Below are positions 45,337-56,690 of a stretch of DNA of 64,000 nucleotides, one piece after another. A program made the translations under genes and the position numbers. The number at the start of each line of letters is the position of its first letter. Position 1 is the first letter of the stretch. Origin of the DNA: Heterohyrax brucei (lineage: Eukaryota > Chordata > Mammalia > Hyracoidea > Procaviidae); the NCBI GenBank assembly GCA_028571685.1, contig CM053164.1, positions 39,730,501 to 39,794,500 of the forward strand, written 5' to 3'. The notes beneath the pieces are model-generated. The model saw nothing but the letters and a program-made list of their open reading frames with translations. It ran no database searches and was not told where the DNA came from.

Positions 45337-47331
45337 TTTATAACACCCTTATTGAAGTGATATGCCTGATCCAGTGTGAGGGAAGTTTTGCTGGATGTGG
45401 CCTACACCACCATTTATCTTAAAAGAGATAAAGGCAAAGGAAGCAAGCAGAGAGTTGGGACTTTCATACCAAAAGAGCAGTGTCAGTAGCAGAATGCATC
45501 CTTTGGAACTGAGGTTCCTGTGCTGAGGTGCTCCCAGGCCAAGATAACACAGTTGCATCACAGGACCCTCCTCTAGAGTCAACATAGAATGAACTTCATA
45601 CTGGAGCCAGCACCCTGAATTAAGATTTCTAGGCTACTGGACTGTAAGAGAGTAACTTCTCTTTGTTAAAGCCATCCATTTGTCATATTTCTGTTACAGT
45701 AGCACTAGGTAAATAAGACAGCCAGTATCACAGAAGGGCTAGGGAGCAGGTTTGAAATGAAGGAAAATAACATTAGAGAAATTGAAGATAAATACTTGAT
45801 TACAACTCTTTTTGAGGAAAAATTAGAAGAAAAAAATGAAGAAACTCAGAATCACATGGCATAAAATCAAAAAGAATAGTTTTTGAGTGATCAGAGCTCC
45901 AGAACAAGGTGAGAAAACAGAAAACACAGACAGAATCATTGAAGAATTGCTGACAGATAACTTCCCTTATATAATGAAAGATGAAAAACTGACTGACCAT
46001 CCAACAAGCTCAAAGAACCACATATAGGATAGATCCCAAAACAAAGTCACCAAGGCATATCATAATCTCACTTGCTGAAACCGAAGACAAAGATAATGTT
46101 CTTAGAGCAGCTCATGAAAAACAAACAAAAAACACATACAGAGGAGAAACAGTAAGACTAAGCATTGATTACTCAGCAGAAACCATTTAGACAAAAAGGC
46201 AATAGGTTGACATATATATTAAAAAGTTGCCAACCAAGAATAATGTATCCTGCAAAACTCTTGTTCAAATAAGATGGTGAAATTAGAACATTTTCAGATA
46301 AACAGAAATTAAAGAACTACGTAAAACCAAGCCTATAAGAATTATTAAAGGGAGTCCTTTGGTCTGAGAACAAACATCAGACCACAACCTAAATCTAGGA
46401 TGCAAGGTTATACCAGCCAGATATCAGAGTAAGAAATGGACTCTCAAGACTATCCAAAACCAAGAGAATTACAACAGGGCATCAGAGGTTAATCTAGCCA
46501 AGCCAAGTGCCTTCCAGGTGGATCCGACTCATGGAAATGACAATAACATCAGAACAACAAAACAGGCAATAAACCGTGTAAGTACTACATAGTGGAGTGG
46601 AAGGCAAGGCAACGCCAAATAATAATAGACTGAGTCAATGCCAGGAAGATAAAGGGGTAAATTTCAAGGTAACCACAAAGAAAGTTCACAAATTTACTCT
46701 TCAAAATAAAAAAAGAAATAAAATCTCAGTAAAAACAAAATCTGCAAAAACAGAAGAAATGAAAAAGAAATCCAAAGCCAAAAGGAATTCAGCAGAGAAG
46801 AGTCACAGAAACAAAGAAATTGTCAGCACCACAAAAAAAAGAAAGGACTACAAAATGACAGGAATAAACTCACACCTATGAATAATTACACTGAATGTAA
46901 ATGGACTAAATGAACTCGTGAAGAGAGTGACAGAATAGATTTTTTTAAAAAAGATCCATCCATATGCTGTCTACAAGGCACTCCTTAGAAACAAAGATTT
47001 ATTAAAAATCAAAGGATGGAAAACTATGTATCAAGCAAATAGCTACCAAAAAGGAACAAGTTTGGCAATACTAATATAAAATAAAATAGACTTTTAAAAC
47101 AAAATCTGTCTTAAAAGATAAAGAAAGACACTATATAATGATTAAAGGAATGATCCAGCATGAAGACTTAACCATAATAAATATCTACTCACCCAAAGAC
47201 AAGGCTCCAAAATACATAAAACAAACTACAAAAGCACTGAAAAGAGAACCTGGCAGTTCCGCAATAATAGTATGAGACTTTGGAGACTGGGCCAAGATGG
47301 CAGAGTAATCCGATACTTCCTGTGATCCCTC

Positions 47332-47842
47332 TGAAAGGGAGGCCCTTGGCCAGCCTGACTCCATCTTGCCACAAACAGTAGTTAAGACAAACATGTTATA
47401 AATATTGAGTCCTGAGAGCTCGATTTTCCCCTATCCATAAGAATTCACTTTGTGCTGGTTATAAGTCACACGGCTATTCTTTCCTCGTAGAAACATTGAT
47501 TAATTGCTCTGTTTATCCCCTTTCAGTTATTCTGTAAGACTACTGAACCGAATCACCAGGTAGTTTGGATAATTATCAAGCCCTGACTTGGTGGAGCCAT
47601 GCAGACCCCCACAAAGAACACTGTTGAAACATCGAAAGAATTACCTGCGTGGACCCAGGAACAACATCAACCAGCACGCCCTCCTTAATCAACCAGGCTT
47701 AGCCTATACATGCAGGCAAGCTTTGGAGGAACCGATTCCCCCTTGCTTCGTGTGCGTCGGCACTCAATAAACAACCTCATTTAATCACCTCACTTCCTAT
47801 CTCAGTACTGGCTTTGAGGACAGGCAGCACAAATCCACAAAT
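47332..47842 (+). mobile_element. 5' LTR of the ERV-I-like provirus
   Basis: About 511 bp, starting TGAAAGGGAGGCCCTTGGCC. An AATAAA poly(A) signal lies at about 47766, and it ends just before the primer site. Homologous to 55728-56254 throughout. Confidence 0.9.
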
Positions 47843-47843
47843 C

Positions 47844-47861
47844 TGGTGGCCCGTACAGGGA
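47844..47861 (+). other. Primer-binding site, tRNA-Ile
   Basis: TGGTGGCCCGTACAGGGA is the complement of the 3' end of tRNA-Ile (CCCGTACGGGCCACCA) with a single change. Confidence 0.9.
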
Positions 47862-48635: not shown

Positions 48636-50400
48636 ATGGGAGGAGTCTCTTCTATTCTGTCAGGCTCCCCTTTGGGGTGCATCTTAGCTGGATGGAAAAA
48701 GTACAGTTATGAACCCACAACTAAGAAAAAGGTGATTCATTTGTTTAATATGTATGGTCCCAGTATATCTTTGGAGATAGGAAATTTGGCCTGTTAACGG
48801 GGTCATGAGGTCCCCTATGTTCAAGCATTTACATCTCTGTGTCAGTCTGTGAGACCACATGAATCTATTCTGTATCAAGGAAAGAAATCGGGTAAGAAAA
48901 TTTATCAGGATTCTTCAGAAGATGATCCCTTATTTGGGGGATGGATGCCCCCATCTGCACCTCTGTCAGTACCAAATGACGGGCAGAATGGGAGACAGAG
49001 AGATGCACAGCCAGTGGCCTCCCTGGACACCTCGAAGGGATAGATCTGCTGTGGGGTCAAGAGGCTGTGTTCAATGGAGGGGCAGACTCATCTACAGGTA
49101 TGGCCTCCCCTTCTCATACCTGACAGGGCACTGTTTTTGGTGAGGGAACCTATAGGCTCCAGAAAGGGCAATACCATTTAAGAGAAGTACCGGCTGGGGT
49201 AGATGCTGATGGGCATCCGAGGCCTGCAATGCTCATCTACACTCCATTCTCCACCTCTGACCTGTATAACTGGAAGAACTACACCCCTCCTTACAGAAGT
49301 GATCCTAATAGAATGGCAGAACTGTTTCTTTCCGTTTTCTGCACTGATCGCCCCACTTGGGTGGATGTATAAACTCTCCTCAATACATTGCTAACGTCTA
49401 AGGAGTGCCACATGGTGTTGGAATAGGCACGGACAGAGGCTGATTGGTTACATAATTTGGATCCCACTAATGGGGATCCCCCAGCCGGCTTGGCAGCAGT
49501 CCCTGTGGCTGACGCCGGATGGACCTATAACACTCAGGAAGGAAAGGCTAGGCTTCAGCACTATCGGGATTGTATTATTTTTGGATTAGGAAATGGGGCT
49601 CCTAAGCCAAAAAGTTTAAATAAAATCAGGGAAGTTATAAAGGAATAAAAGGAGGATCTTCAACCTTTCTTGAGAGAGTTACTGAGGTATTTTGCCAATA
49701 CATTGATATTAACCCTGAAGATCCCAATAATACTAGATTGCTGAATATGATGTTCATCCCTCAGAGTGCCCTGATATTAAAAAAAAAATTACAGAAATTT
49801 GAAGGGGGTCTTGGGATGCCTCTATGACAGCTGCTTGAGATAGCCTTTAAGTTTTTAATTATTGGAACCAGGCTGCTGAACAGAAGGAAAAACAGAAACA
49901 AAAACAAAAGGCAGCACTGTTGGAGGGGACCTCCTCTCAGAGCTGGAGGCACAAGTTATTTTCAGTCCCCCTAAAGTACTGGTACAGATCCCTCCTCCTG
50001 CAGCTTGTGTGTTGCAGGCTGCTCTGCTACATGATGAAACAATGCCACCCAGTGAAGGTGAAAACATACCTGAATGTGCCGAACAACACGTAAATCCATC
50101 CATTTGGGCAGTGGGCCAGCTGGGGCAAGCAAAGTCAGCAGCACTGTTGGCAGCCACTTGGCAAACAGGGGATAAGAGGTGAACACGGAGAACAAGGGCG
50201 GGGGCAATCCCTAAGCAGGCAAAGCTGTTTCAATGGCAGTCTTCGCAGACAAATCAACGTGCCTACTGCAAAAAGCTGGCACACTGGAAGTGAGAATACC
50301 CCAAGTGCAGGCCCCCACAAGGAAAATTACAGGCACTCTAGGAGTGTCTTAACGTTGAAGACTCAGATTGAAGGGGTCCAAGGTCAGAGAACACCTTCCT
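48636..50400 (+). pseudogene. gag: gag remnant
   Basis: The ATG at 48636 starts MGGVSSILSG, with Gly2 as a myristoylation site, then PLGCILAGW, a gammaretroviral matrix-type start. A stop follows after about 50 codons. Capsid is recognisable at 49457-49800 (GWTYNTQEGKARLQHYRDC; then LERVTEVFCQYIDINPED and LKKKLQKFEG), with stops. A Lys/Gln-rich stretch and a degenerate zinc-knuckle remnant (AYCKKLAHWK near 50266-50295) follow. Between capsid and the knuckle lies a 215-bp block (49926-50140) copied from the pro/RT linker. Matrix, capsid and NC order is normal apart from that block. Confidence 0.85.
49926..50140 (+). repeat. Copy of the pro/RT-linker segment inside gag (repeat unit 1)
   Basis: Ungapped match by eye to 50660-50874 at an offset of 734 bp, including CTGCTCTGCTACATGATGAA. 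Unit 2 runs naturally into RT, so unit 1 is the displaced copy. Confidence 0.9.
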
Positions 50401-50659: not shown

Positions 50660-50874
50660 GGGACCTCCTCTAAAAGCTGGGGCACAAGTTGCTTTCAATC
50701 CCCCTAAAGTACTGTTACAGATCCATCCTCATGCAGCTTGTGCATTGCAGGCTGCTCTGCTACATGATGAAACAATGCCACCCAGCGAAGGTGAAAACAT
50801 ACCTGAGTGTGCCGAACAACAGGTAAACCCAGCTGTTTGGGCAGCAGGCCAGCCAGGGCTAGCAGAGTTGCCAG
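50660..50874 (+). repeat. Pro/RT-linker segment, native position (repeat unit 2)
   Basis: It lies between the protease end and the RT start and is in frame with the start of RT (PAPVKIILKPEIPTVNQKQY). Confidence 0.9.
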
Positions 50875-52230
50875 CACCAGTAAAAATTATTCTGAAACCT
50901 GAGATCCCCACAGTAAATCAAAAACAGTACCCAATTCAAAGAGGAGCCCTATAAGGCCTCACACCTCTGGTTCAACAATATTTGAAAACATGACTTTTAA
51001 GATATTGCCAGTCTCCTTATAATACCTCCAGGTTGCCTGTGCTTAAACCAGGCACCCAAGAATATCTGTACAAGATTTAAGAAAATCAGTCAGATTGTGG
51101 AGGACATTCATCCCATGGTACCCAATTCATGTACCTTCCTGGTCACCATCCCTGGGAACTGTGCATGGTTTTCAGTGCTGGACTTAAAATACGCATGTTT
51201 TGCACACCTTCATACCTGAGTCACAGCCTTTGTTTGCCTCTGAATGGAGAGGTGTTGAGACTGGAACAAAGAGACATCTGACTTGGTAGGTTCTGGTACA
51301 AGGATCTAAGAATTCTCCTACAACATTTGGAGAAATTTTGGCATGAGACTTGAAAGCCTTAGAACTGAAAGGAGGAATTATCTTACAACAGTAGATGATA
51401 CATTGGTAGCCAGTGAACTTAAAGAGGATTCAGACTGAAACACTGTATGTGTTTTAAATTATCTAGCTGAATGTGGTTATAAGGTCTTCAATGAAAAGCT
51501 CAAGTTTCACAAACTCAAGTGAAATACCTGGAGTTCTAGATTTCCCAGAGTCAAAGAGATCTTTTTCCTGATAGAGGAGAAGCAATTGTCCGAGTGAAGC
51601 CACCAACAAATAAGCAACAACTACAGGGATTTCTAAGAATGGCAGGGTTCTGTTGCATTTGTATACCAGGGTATAGACTAATCACTAAGTCTCTGTATAA
51701 GGCATTAAAAGAAGAAAGGGAGCCTCTGCTGTGGACACTGAAGTGCCAATAAGCCTTTGAAAAGATTAAACATAAACTAATGACAGCTCCTGCTCTAGGG
51801 CTCCTCGATCTCAAAAAGCCTTTTGAACTGTTTGTACATGAAAAACAGGGAGTGGCCATGGGGGTCCTGACCCAAACTTTAGGGCCTGCAAAGTGACCAG
51901 TTGCCTGCTTTTCAAAACAGTTAGATGCTGTGGCTTGTGGATGGCCCCCCTGTCTGCAGGCCGTCACTGCCACCTGTAATTTGCTCCAAGAAGCAGAGAA
52001 GTTTACTCTGGGACCGCAAGTGCTGGTAAATACACCTCATGTAGTCCTCCTCCTCCTAGAACAGTGGGAGGGATTCTGGTTAACAGCAGGACAGATGGGG
52101 AAATATCAGGCCATCCTATTAGACAATCCAAGCACAACCTTACGGGTGGTGATGACTTTGAATCCAGCCATGTCGCTGCCTGTTGTGGAAGGCCCACCTC
52201 AGCATGACTGTTTATAAAAATCATCAAAGA
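50875..52230 (+). pseudogene. pol: Reverse transcriptase and connection domain remnant (pol)
   Basis: RT begins near 50880 (KPEIPTVNQKQYPI). The fingers/palm text is degraded (DIHPMVPNSCTFLVTIPG; FSVLDLKYACF). The catalytic box reads TVDD in place of YVDD (Val-Asp-Asp at 51391-51399). The thumb and connection regions follow (LTQTLGPAK at about 51870; the 51930-52217 frame with EAEKFTLGPQVLVNTPH). Many stops. The order and spacing are those of a gammaretroviral Pol. Confidence 0.88.
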
Positions 52231-52839: not shown

Positions 52840-54026
52840 CATGACTGGCCGATTGGTCCAGACGGGAAAGTCCTGGTACCCAAAGCTCAGGTACAAAATG
52901 TAGTGTCTGTTCTCCATGACAGGACTCATTATGGTTGGGATGCCAGCATAGAATGGATGCAATAAATAATAGCTGGACCTAACCTCTTAAAGACTATTCA
53001 GAAGGTGACACAAGAGTGTCTCCTCTGTCTTCCAAATAATCCAAAAACAGTCTCACACCCCTCATTACCAGGGATCCAGTTCTGTGGAACAGATATGGGA
53101 GAAGAATGGCAGGTGGACTTCACTGTAATGCCTTGAGTCCCTGGAAATTTTTGGTATTTATTGGTCTTTGTGGACATATACTCTGGATGCGTGGAAGCTT
53201 TCCCTTTTGGACTGAACAAGCCCGGGAAGTGACCAAGGCTCTTCTGACAGATATTTTGCCAAGATTTGGACTCCCTCTGACTATCCAGAGTGATAATGGT
53301 GGGGCACTTATTGCCTAAGTAACCCAAAATGTAAATAAAGCACTGCAAATAGTGTGGAGGCTATATTCTGCCGGGAGACTGCAGTCGATGGAAAAAACAG
53401 AAAACATGAACCACACCTTAAAGAAGACATTGACTAAGCTTTGCCAAGAGACCCATTCAACACGGATCCAGGCATTGCCTACTTCCCTGCTCTGGGTTTG
53501 GGTGGCCCCTCGAAGTGGGCTTAAATTAAGCCCTTATGAGTTAATATATGGGAGGCCATTCTTGAAACGGTTTGCTCTTCCCCCCTCAGCGGCTACTGAG
53601 GTGGAGAAGCAGGAATGGATCTGTTCTCTGGGAAAAGCTCTTACTATTATTAATCAGTATGCTTCCTCTTGTTTATCTTTCCCAGCCAATGTTCCTCTCC
53701 ACAGGTTCAAGCCCGGCAACCAAGTGTTACTGAAGGTGTCAAGACAGCAACATCCTGAAGACGGGTTGTTTCCACCGTGGAAAGGTCCACATGAGGTCCT
53801 ATTGACCACTCACTCTTGTGTGAATCTTGCTGGGGCAGTGGCTTGGGTACACCACACCCAAATCAAGGCTAGCTCTCCTTTACAACCTGGAAAACAACAA
53901 CAAGGAGAAGACAAACAGACTCATCACAAATATTCCTGCACAGCAGTGGGAGGCTTAAGTACAAATTCAAAAAAATATGATGCTTTTTTTGTTTCTCATT
54001 TTCCAGAATTTGACAGAAAGGTCTGA
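52840..54026 (+). pseudogene. pol: Integrase remnant (pol C-terminus)
   Basis: The zinc-binding region shows a His-x3-His (HDRTH near 52915) and ECLLC (53014-53028). The catalytic core has GEEWQVDFTV (first Asp), then IQSDNGGALIA (second Asp, about 53285-53318), and a Glu-containing stretch near 53395. The C-terminal 224-codon open frame (53352-54026) carries the SH3-like region (HRFKPGNQVLLKV, then WVHHTQIKAS). Its last residues read into the SIRP-like segment, so the integrase terminus is not native. Confidence 0.9.
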
Positions 54027-54357
54027 ACTCGTTTTACTTCAGACAGAAGGAACTCTCACTGTGGTGACCAATGGGACCCTGACACTTACTCGCACTATTT
54101 CTGCCTTAACTACAGGGGTGCCAACAAAATGGGAGAAACAAACCTCAGGAGGGGAAAGTTCTACAGTTTGGGAAGCAAAAAATAAAGCTCCTCACATTTT
54201 CCTTATTGCTGATACTACCTGGGGAAATAACATGGATTTTTCTGTTATGATCTCTGAAATCACTCCCCTTGATGAAGGCAGTTATTTCTGTGTTAAATTT
54301 CATAAGGCAACCCCTCAAGATGTTGAGGTTCTGAGGGGACAAGGGGTTCAAAGTTAA
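53977..54357 (+). pseudogene. SIRP-family immunoglobulin V domain exon inside the provirus
   Basis: A 126-codon open frame between integrase and env. Residues about 15-119 follow the signal-regulatory protein (SIRP) V domain: an N-terminal strand (SELVLLQTEGTLTVV), B-strand text LTRTISAL, C-strand VPTKWEK (Trp52), then NNMDFSVMISEITPLDEGS and YFCVKFHKATPQDVE (Cys105). From memory host SIRPs carry a very similar NNMDFS...ITPADAG...YYCVKF stretch. The expected B-strand Cys is Arg39 (CGC, one transition from TGC), so the intradomain disulfide is lost. The segment 54007-54352 (346 bp) is preceded by a strong acceptor (TTTGTTTCTCATTTTCCAG) and followed by a possible donor (GTTAAG), matching one whole V exon. 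The ORF's first ten residues come from the acceptor tract. Host SIRPs bind CD47 through this domain; whether this copy ever did is unknown. Confidence 0.8.
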
Positions 54358-55105
54358 GATTTCAACCTGATGGATGGTACTGGTCCTTTAATGCCATGAC
54401 ATCCACGTCCCAAGCAGTTGCTAAGGGGGTTAGACTTAAAAATTGTTAGATTTGCCACCATCTACACTACTCAGGAGCTCCAGTTCATCCACTGGCCACC
54501 CTGGTGCTCAATTATAATCATACCCTTTACTGTGTCAATACACTTACAAAGCCAAAAGTTCCTGTATGAGCCTGGTTAATTCAATATCCTATTACAGTGT
54601 CTTGTTTTACTGTGTCTAGTCTACATAATAGGACTACCCTTGGGGGCTGGAGACTCCTCTGTTGACCCCTGAGGGTGGGTGGGAATCCCAGTTGTCAAGA
54701 TTTCCAACTTTTTCCTTTATGTGATCAAACTAAGTTTAGTACTTATCTGATGCTTACTTCTGATTCACTTATTGCTAACTTCTCACTGTGTGCCCCTCCA
54801 GGATACATTTTTCTGTGTGGGGGAACACCCCATCCTTCTAACAAAGAATCCTTGCCTCGACCCACACATTGGACTTGGGCTATACAACAACCAAACACAA
54901 AAAGCTTTGTGGGACAGTGTAATTTGGGATTCCTAGTGTTCCCTACTGAGGTTTGTCAAAATGCCTCAAGAGTCTCCCTTGAAATTGCTAAAAGGGACAC
55001 AGAGGGGTACGATCCAGAAAGACATAATCCTTTGTTGGAGAAAGCAGCTTTGGATGGTAGCTTCTCCAAATTCTCATACAGGGACACAGGGATGTACTAA
55101 ATGGA
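54358..55105 (+). pseudogene. env: env surface (SU) remnant
   Basis: Broken frames with Cys- and Asn-glycosylation-rich text typical of a gammaretroviral-type SU. The clearest is the 141-codon frame at 54675-55100, with PPGYIFLCGGTPHP and GQCNLGFLVFPTEV. No signal peptide or normal SU N-terminus is visible; the SIRP-like segment lies where it should be. Confidence 0.8.
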
Positions 55106-55627
55106 GGAGACACAGTTTGAAATTTGTCTGATACCATATATCTGCTGGTTGTGGGAACATAAAAAGCTTTGAGAGCTCAACAGATGTCCCTGAATTTGTT
55201 AGCAGAGGTGGTCCTTGATAACTGCCTTGCTTTAGATTTCCTGCTTGAAAAATGGGGGTGTCTGTGCAGTAATCAATAAAACCTGCTATACTTGGATTAA
55301 CACTTCAGGAGAAGTCGAGGTAAGCCTAAATGAAATCCATAAGGTGGTTGATTGGACTCATCTCCACCCAAACTGGAGGTCTTGGGATAGCTGGCTGTCC
55401 CCTCTCTAGAATCTTGGCTAACACCATTACTCACTACCATAATAGTGATTGTTCTAATCTGTGTTTGTGTACCGTATCTTGTTAAAATGAACCTGGGAGG
55501 AACTAGATGCACCCTCCAGGCAGAAGGGGTATTTATAAGGGATACCCTGTCCTCTTCCCATAAGCAGACGTGTATGATACAAGATGCTGCTGTTTTCCAG
55601 AATACACCTCCCCCTTACTGTGAATAA
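55106..55627 (+). pseudogene. env: env transmembrane (TM) remnant
   Basis: Degenerate heptad region (SLNLLAEVVLDNCLALDFLL), a Cys-containing loop (about 55255-55310), a membrane span (TIIVIVLICVCVPYLV, about 55436-55485) and a short tail ending at 55624. Several stops and frameshifts. The pattern fits the ERV-I/HERV-F/H group. Confidence 0.82.
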
Positions 55628-55727: not shown

Positions 55728-56254
55728 TTAAAAGGGAGGCCCTTGGCCAGCCCAACTCTGTCTCACTACAAACAGAGTTAAGACAACCATGTTATAAACA
55801 CTGAGTCCTGAGAGCTTGATTTTCCTCTATTCATAAGAATTCACCTTGTACTGGTTATAAGTCACATGGCTATTCCTTCTTCTTAGAAACATTGATTAAT
55901 TATTCTGTTTATCCCCTTTCAGTTTCTCTGACTATTGAACCAAATCACCAGGTAGTTTGGATGATTATCAAGCCCTGACTTGTTGGAGCCATGGACATCC
56001 CCACAAAGAACACTGTTGAAACATCGAAAGAATTACTTACATGCACCCCAGAAAAATTTCAACCAATGCTGCCACCTTAATCAACCTATATAACCTCCAG
56101 GCTTAGCCTATGCAAGCAGGCAAGCTTTGGAGGAATCGATTCCCCCTGGCCTCTTGTGTGTCGGCACTCAATAAATATCCTCATTTAATCACCTCCCTCC
56201 TGTCTCAGTATTGGCTTTGCAGACAGGCTGCATGGATCCACGATTGTGGTCATA
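55728..56254 (+). mobile_element. 3' LTR of the ERV-I-like provirus
   Basis: Starts TTAAAAGGGAGGCCCTTGGC (the first base pair has decayed from TG), AATAAA at about 56170, ends near TGGTCATA. Followed by the CCTCT target copy. Confidence 0.88.
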
Positions 56255-56690
56255 CCTCTAGTAACAAAGACTCAAAAGAACAAATGATTCTACCTTATAT
56301 GACATTCTGGGAGCCCTGAACATCAAAGGGAAAGTTGAGATACAAGACTGAGCCACACGGAAGGGAGAGTAGGTCCAGAAGTACCTAGGAATGGCCAGAC
56401 CTGAGCTTAAGGGAAATGGCACCAAAGCAGATCACCTGCAAGGAACATAGGGTGGGAAGCAGTGATGTTTGGAAAGTGTCTTCCACAGTGTGAGAGACCA
56501 GGCAGCGCAGAACCCACTCATGCTCCCAGAATAGTGAAAAACGGCATTTGATCATTAACTAGCTTGCGTCTAACCTACCAAATGTGTCTAATTCTTTCCT
56601 TTGTGATAAATCTCTCTCCATTTTCCCAGTGCTTCCTCAGCGCTTCTCTGTAGACTGACACAACTCCTATACAGGAAGTAGGACTGATAA

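Follow-up and report, generated by a model that had tools for sequence, protein, structure and literature searches.

A SIRP-like immunoglobulin V domain in frame with the envelope of several endogenous retrovirus groups in Heterohyrax brucei

The DNA considered here (the window) is a 64,000-nucleotide stretch of the Heterohyrax brucei genome (GCA_028571685.1, contig CM053164.1, positions 39,730,501 to 39,794,500) containing a decayed provirus of an endogenous retrovirus (ERV) whose envelope gene (env) begins with an immunoglobulin (Ig) V domain like that of the SIRP receptors. Very probably, a gamma-type retrovirus fused a host SIRP V domain into the surface subunit (SU) of its envelope protein (Env), and the fusion was kept across at least three ERV groups, likely for binding CD47 or a relative. 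An ancestral gamma-type retrovirus would have picked up the sequence encoding a single V domain of a host SIRP, the transfer presumably running from host to virus, and fused it in frame after the Env signal peptide and before the CXXC motif of SU, an order seen in the sequence. SU would thereby have borne a V domain as its outermost part and kept it during divergence of the lineage into no fewer than three ERV groups. Displayed on virus particles and on infected cells, the domain probably bound CD47 or a relative, serving as an attachment or tropism module, as an immune mimic or as both. In the group of the window provirus (F1) the V domain would have ceased to matter, with an env segment lost from most sampled copies and the disulphide from many, even as pol remained under constraint. 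L080, an old copy elsewhere, kept a complete open env and could be a domesticated host gene. Three observations go beyond an earlier note on this DNA, which described the window copy from its sequence: three groups have the V domain reading in frame into SU, the env of L080 is open, and 29 of 40 F1 copies have lost env sequence while keeping V.

The V domain of the window lies in an open frame spanning 53959-54357 on the + strand, and the translation of 53977-54357 agrees with the earlier description. In a phmmer search of PDB its top 19 distinct sequences are all SIRP chains (E 8.2e-19 to 2.7e-13, human SIRPG at about 8e-19), several of them labelled PTPN substrate 1, which we take to be an alias of SIRP-alpha; the best non-SIRP Ig chain has E 3.7e-6. 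Pfam gives V-set in this frame (E 2.6e-9) and MLVIN_C in the preceding one. The earlier note had called the segment a SIRP V domain at the SU N-terminus of a retrovirus, and both parts stand: the match is far above other Ig domains, here and in L080, and a pair of long terminal repeats (LTRs) encloses the segment, with the MLVIN_C frame ahead of it and an SU remnant behind. The features of the provirus are as follows.

47334..47843, + strand: 5' LTR (approximate), pairing with 55731-56250.
47844..47861, + strand: primer-binding-site-like stretch, assigned by position only and presumably of tRNA-Ile type.
53319..54023, + strand: integrase C-terminal frame (MLVIN_C, Pfam E 1.9e-9), overlapping the start of env.
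53977..54030, + strand: start codons and a hydrophobic signal-peptide-like stretch (by eye), including CCAG, from the sibling alignment.
54031..54354, + strand: SIRP-like V domain with shortened G strand and Arg at the B-strand Cys position (phmmer, Pfam, alignment).
54358..55100, + strand: SU remnant by likeness to the SU of L080, with a stop (54447-54449) at the Trp of CXXC.
54549..55322, + strand: env segment deleted in 29 of 40 siblings and retained by the window copy (alignment of 40 copies).
55100..55490, + strand: remnant of the transmembrane subunit (TM) in several frames, from three-frame translation, identified by eye through its resemblance to L080.
55731..56250, + strand: 3' LTR (approximate), pairing with 47334-47843.

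The window copy is dead, as had been proposed, with its V frame broken by a small deletion at about 54352, a stop at the CXXC Trp and its TM spread over several frames. Trp52 is retained and the B-strand Cys is replaced by Arg, both as first described, and the copy lacks the disulphide. The stop at 54355 follows the small deletion, which no other of the 40 copies shows. This stop was tried as the natural terminus of a secreted protein and rejected: a column tally gave 34/40, but 30 of 39 siblings use another frame there, common to them, in which V completes its G strand and enters SU.

The complete fusion is found in L080 (contig C27), where an open frame of 654 codons ends in 587 codons, starting from a Met, that constitute env (L080 1426-3186). 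In order, they encode a stretch resembling a signal peptide, the whole V domain, CWVC at residue 171, CX6CC at 457, an anchor in the membrane and a tail, the signal stretch and the anchor being assigned by eye, and Pfam matches V-set (E 1.6e-11) and TLV_coat (E 1.2e-10). With the SU CXXC, the TM CX6CC and the TLV_coat match this is a gamma-type Env. All of the top 19 PDB chains for its V domain are SIRP (best E 4.3e-23; best other Ig chain 9.7e-11), and the domain has the B-F disulphide, C-strand Trp and J-like G strand of a V-set domain in its sequence and predicted fold. The V-C1-C1 order of SIRP genes is absent, SU and TM coming after V.

Searches of the source genome (3.49 Gb) place the same arrangement at many loci. 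A human SIRPG V query gave 278 candidates, of which 150 were scored; 17 lie inside the host SIRP cluster (C17:56846489-57642974, 56.8-57.6 Mb), which is distinct from the ERV loci, and 133 elsewhere, the latter inspected in part. The human genome has only a few SIRP genes, fewer than the 17 V-exon matches of this cluster. Among 21 loci read, an L080-like SU stretch follows V in frame in 20 (the exception being L087), the CWxC motif is intact in 17 (not in L087, L091, L101 or L104), and L091, L098 and L104 have stops within the SU stretch. In each of the three ERV groups (F1, F2 and F3) V reads in frame into SU, and the Env-linked form, one of the options raised by the earlier note, is the one observed, extending through SU and TM in L080. 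At L090 most of V, CWIC and CX6CC share one frame before the first stop, the frame being broken near the V start. A query with the region after V, the L080 SU, gave 177 matches, with 148 scored of 697 candidates; one is C25:39784866-39785498, that is window 54366-54998 (E 4.6e-47). Of 20 chosen SU loci lacking a V row in the SIRPG search, 19 have a V domain upstream (E <=8.4e-8), and no V-less relative was found among the 20, the upstream stretch of the remaining L116 (E 0.35) appearing unrelated by eye. A viral contig collection held no relative of the window V domain or of the integrase frame.

A tree was built from 52 V domains (35 ERV, 15 host and 2 human), omitting rows matching fewer than 95 query residues and same-place repeats. 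Unrooted, it splits the 35 ERV domains from the 17 host and human ones with support 100/99, and the ERV domains form three groups, F1 with the window, F2 with L080 and L077, and F3. Pairwise ratios of nonsynonymous to synonymous change (dN/dS, NG86) for V are 0.37 in F3a (21 pairs), 0.47 in F3b (28), 0.73 in F1 (36) and 0.50 among host domains (45). Between L080 and L077 the ratio is 0.22 for V and 0.21 for the rest of SU, so that selection acts on V as on the rest of SU. V is under purifying selection in the better preserved ERV groups.

The F1 group itself has decayed. A DNA query of 53850-54500 gave 82 candidates, and the 40 that were scored were all retrieved and aligned. V is covered by all 40, with identities of 80-86% apart from the window copy. 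Since the query itself contained V, this list alone could not reveal V-less members, and the SU-based search was added. The env segment is missing from 29 copies, all of which retain V, and the ends of the gap are identical or almost so; the net loss, measurable in 26, is 773-777 nt and exactly 773 in 22. Such near-identical ends and size point in the main to one inherited deletion, and an env-less subfamily has been amplified while keeping V. Outside this set are L001, L002, L005, L006, L010, L018, L020, L027 (which carries a different gap), L028, L033 and L037. The deletion also has short matching ends.

Across the 40 F1 copies the B-strand position holds Cys in 16, Tyr in 18 and another residue or a gap in 6; the C-strand Trp is present in 29, the F-strand Cys in 35 and the Met at 53977 in 25. 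The CXXC Trp codon reads Trp in 13 and stop in 20. The Cys/Tyr (codon 54091) and Trp/stop (codon 54447) splits would fit G-to-A changes carried by subfamilies. Shared variants, with CpG columns excluded, fall on the three codon positions as 23/19/20 in V (p 0.81) and 17/13/31 in integrase (p 0.012), the latter with a third-position excess; with CpG columns kept the counts are 27/26/25 (p 0.96) and 30/26/44 (p 0.069). The even spread in V against the skew in integrase suggests that pol was still useful to F1 and that V apparently was not.

These F1 copies bear on an unlikely alternative, in which V is a stand-alone secreted SIRP-like decoy, encoded by an accessory gene beside env. The 29 copies that lost env and kept V favour it, and the 20 copies with a stop at the CXXC Trp could make only V and a short tail. 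However, L080 has V, SU and TM in a single frame, L090 has V and the TM cysteine motif in one, and the other groups have V joined in frame to SU; within F1 itself, V lacks codon-position constraint and keeps the B-strand Cys in only 16 of 40 copies.

Gamma-type receptor-binding domains are beta sandwiches. A conserved beta-strand core is described in PMC9967133, and the ERV V domains group apart from host SIRPs in the tree. V might accordingly be an old intrinsic receptor-binding domain of Env with a merely Ig-like fold and no capture behind it. This is very unlikely, because the likeness to SIRP is one of sequence and not of fold alone, as the gap between SIRP and other Ig chains for L080 shows, and because the J-like G strand is common to both. 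Among solved structures, Syncytin-2 (7oix) matches the L080 Env best outside V, through TM (E 1.5e-11); the CWxC motifs of the two align only in a fragment scoring below zero bits. The CXXC of Syncytin-2 lies at residues 43-46, ahead of its receptor-binding domain, according to PMC9967133. Without V, the CWVC of L080 would be about as near the start, so that V looks added in front. The distance from CWxC to CX6CC is 286 residues in L080, 226 in L090 and 388 in Syncytin-2 (102-162 fewer in the ERVs), and some of the old SU may therefore be lost; addition in front of CXXC and partial loss of the old SU can both be true. A clean replacement of the receptor-binding domain by V was also considered; the N-terminal CXXC favours addition and the shorter span favours loss. 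The predicted model of the L080 SU body has a mean confidence (pLDDT) of 29.7, too low to use.

A transfer in the other direction, with host SIRP genes acquiring their V domain from a retrovirus, is highly improbable: the tree is unrooted and so accommodates it, but the human and source-genome SIRP V domains stand together on one side, the host V domains lie in intron-flanked exons (8 viewed, by eye), and V-C1-C1 SIRP receptors with an antigen-receptor-like V are widespread in mammals. Least probable is a SIRP pseudo-exon inserted into the window provirus after integration, an outcome the window copy by itself could not exclude and which had been named beforehand as a test; it is refuted by the 40 of 40 copies that carry the same host segment with the same junctions at separate genomic places, as expected of an ERV carrying a host gene.

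The capture by Env was further considered at its edges. The 60 nt before V in 19 ERV rows were compared with 11 host SIRP V exons, with 200 shuffles each of letter pairs within halves (a coarse control) and a criterion at the 10% level. Among F1 copies the score was reached by 5/200 shuffles for L002 and 13/200 for L003, and by 30 to 97/200 for the other seven (window, 58); in F2 by 25/200 for L080 and 80/200 for L077; and in F3 by 90 to 193/200 in 8 rows. Retained host intron edges, proposed earlier, are thus unsupported though not disproved, only 2 of 9 F1 copies beating the shuffles and the other 7, the window copy included, coming no nearer to host SIRP ahead of V than shuffles do. At the strong splice acceptor described there, the AG at 54005-54006 is kept in 37 of 40 copies; the tract doubles as the hydrophobic N-terminus of the protein, and its origin in a host intron is unsupported. 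The V homology runs from just past the acceptor to just short of the donor (by eye), approximately one host exon, and genomic DNA, unspliced RNA and trimmed mRNA are therefore indistinguishable as sources.

Several points weigh against the capture and retention of a CD47-binding V domain. Median identities of ERV to host SIRP V are only 33-42% (F1 35%, F2 42%, F3 33-36%), as compared with 68% among host domains; with the tree unrooted and the ERV branch long, the time of capture and the donor are unsure, and there may have been several separate captures. The dN/dS of V between F3a and F3b is 0.63 (56 pairs), nearer to relaxation or altered function, and V in F1 shows no codon-position constraint. 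The low ratios of L080 and L077 come with dS of about 1.4, near saturation, and cover V and SU, TM not being computable. The two Envs examined for it, L080 and L090 (the latter ahead of its stop), have no RxxR between SU and TM; they may not be ordinary fusogens, and a displayed, non-fusing role is possible for both. Finally, the proposed attachment to CD47 is argued from homology alone. CD47 is the ligand of SIRP, whose FG loop contacts it, and all 17 aligned V domains, from host and ERV alike, have the same two lysines in this loop; by homology the ERV V domain would attach to CD47.

The age of L080 may point to a role in the host. Its two LTRs are different at 24.7% of the 324 sites compared (Kimura two-parameter distance, K2P, 0.306), and another aligned piece, of 104 columns, is 81.7% identical. 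At an assumed rate of 2.2e-9 substitutions per site per year the divergence corresponds to roughly 70 million years, an age that LTR recombination or conversion could distort. Under neutrality 10-11 stop gains would be expected in its env, and the probability of none is 2e-5 to 4e-5; L080 was singled out as the best among 150 rows, so a fair probability is 0.2-0.6%, before counting indels. Immediately upstream, 6 stops interrupt the integrase match, and a second match lies in a different frame. An open frame despite LTRs diverged by about 25% is suggestive of a domesticated host gene, not proof of one. A bolder scenario, possible but tentative, is that the lineage entered cells, evaded immunity or did both by means of a stolen SIRP V domain on Env, and that the host has retained L080 as a gene over tens of millions of years, encoding what may be a non-fusing CD47 binder.

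In the window provirus the LTRs are identical at 442 of 526 aligned columns (K2P 0.145 over 508 sites), or about 33 million years at the same rate. LTR dating was tried on 20 siblings and yielded an alignment in 7, 2 of these with fewer than 80 sites. The provirus contains a 197-nt direct repeat, 88% identical (49948-50144 and 50681-50877), placed by eye in the 3' part of gag and between protease and reverse transcriptase, an internal duplication perhaps made by a template jump. Its flanks (47180-47334 and 56250-56330) look like an L1 5' end, into which it appears to have inserted, and may include a 4-bp target duplication (by eye).

Capture of host genes by ERVs is known. According to PMC4299795, nectin-3 was taken up in the crocodilian CrocERV31 lineage, and KIT ligand has also been captured; as here, CrocERV31 gained a gene of the host immunoglobulin superfamily and retained it while spreading, but it acquired host mRNA with three Ig-like domains at the expense of env, whereas here one V domain is in frame in Env with the order kept. 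ERV-Hako carries pieces of SUSD6 or SPHKAP, likewise host sequence within several ERV copies, but these are 3' untranslated sequence (PMC11905727), and V here is a coding domain. Ig-like proteins of pox-, herpes-, adeno- and iridoviruses in BFVD, several named for host proteins, belong to DNA viruses and are at most 22% identical among the 50 rows listed, none of which is named a retroviral Env (some are nameless). The SIRP alpha, beta and gamma V domains are alike in sequence, predicted fold and FG-loop lysines, but C1 domains follow V there, and SU and TM follow it in L080. Syncytin-2, the HERV-FRD Env, resembles L080 outside V, and we know of no Ig domain in it. A search of the literature outside subscription papers and preprints found no host Ig domain in Env kept by several ERV groups with SU-like constraint.

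The origin of the receptor-binding parts of retroviral Env is mostly unknown, and here is an Env domain with a traceable host origin. Because CD47 is known as the ligand of the donor receptor, the partner of the Env V domain can be guessed and tested. If the fusion is as described, a retrovirus can gain an immune-checkpoint domain as an Env module and keep it across several families, and the captured module may have been handed back to the host as a gene. Were L080 kept as such a gene, it would be a new virus-delivered, membrane-anchored SIRP-like protein.
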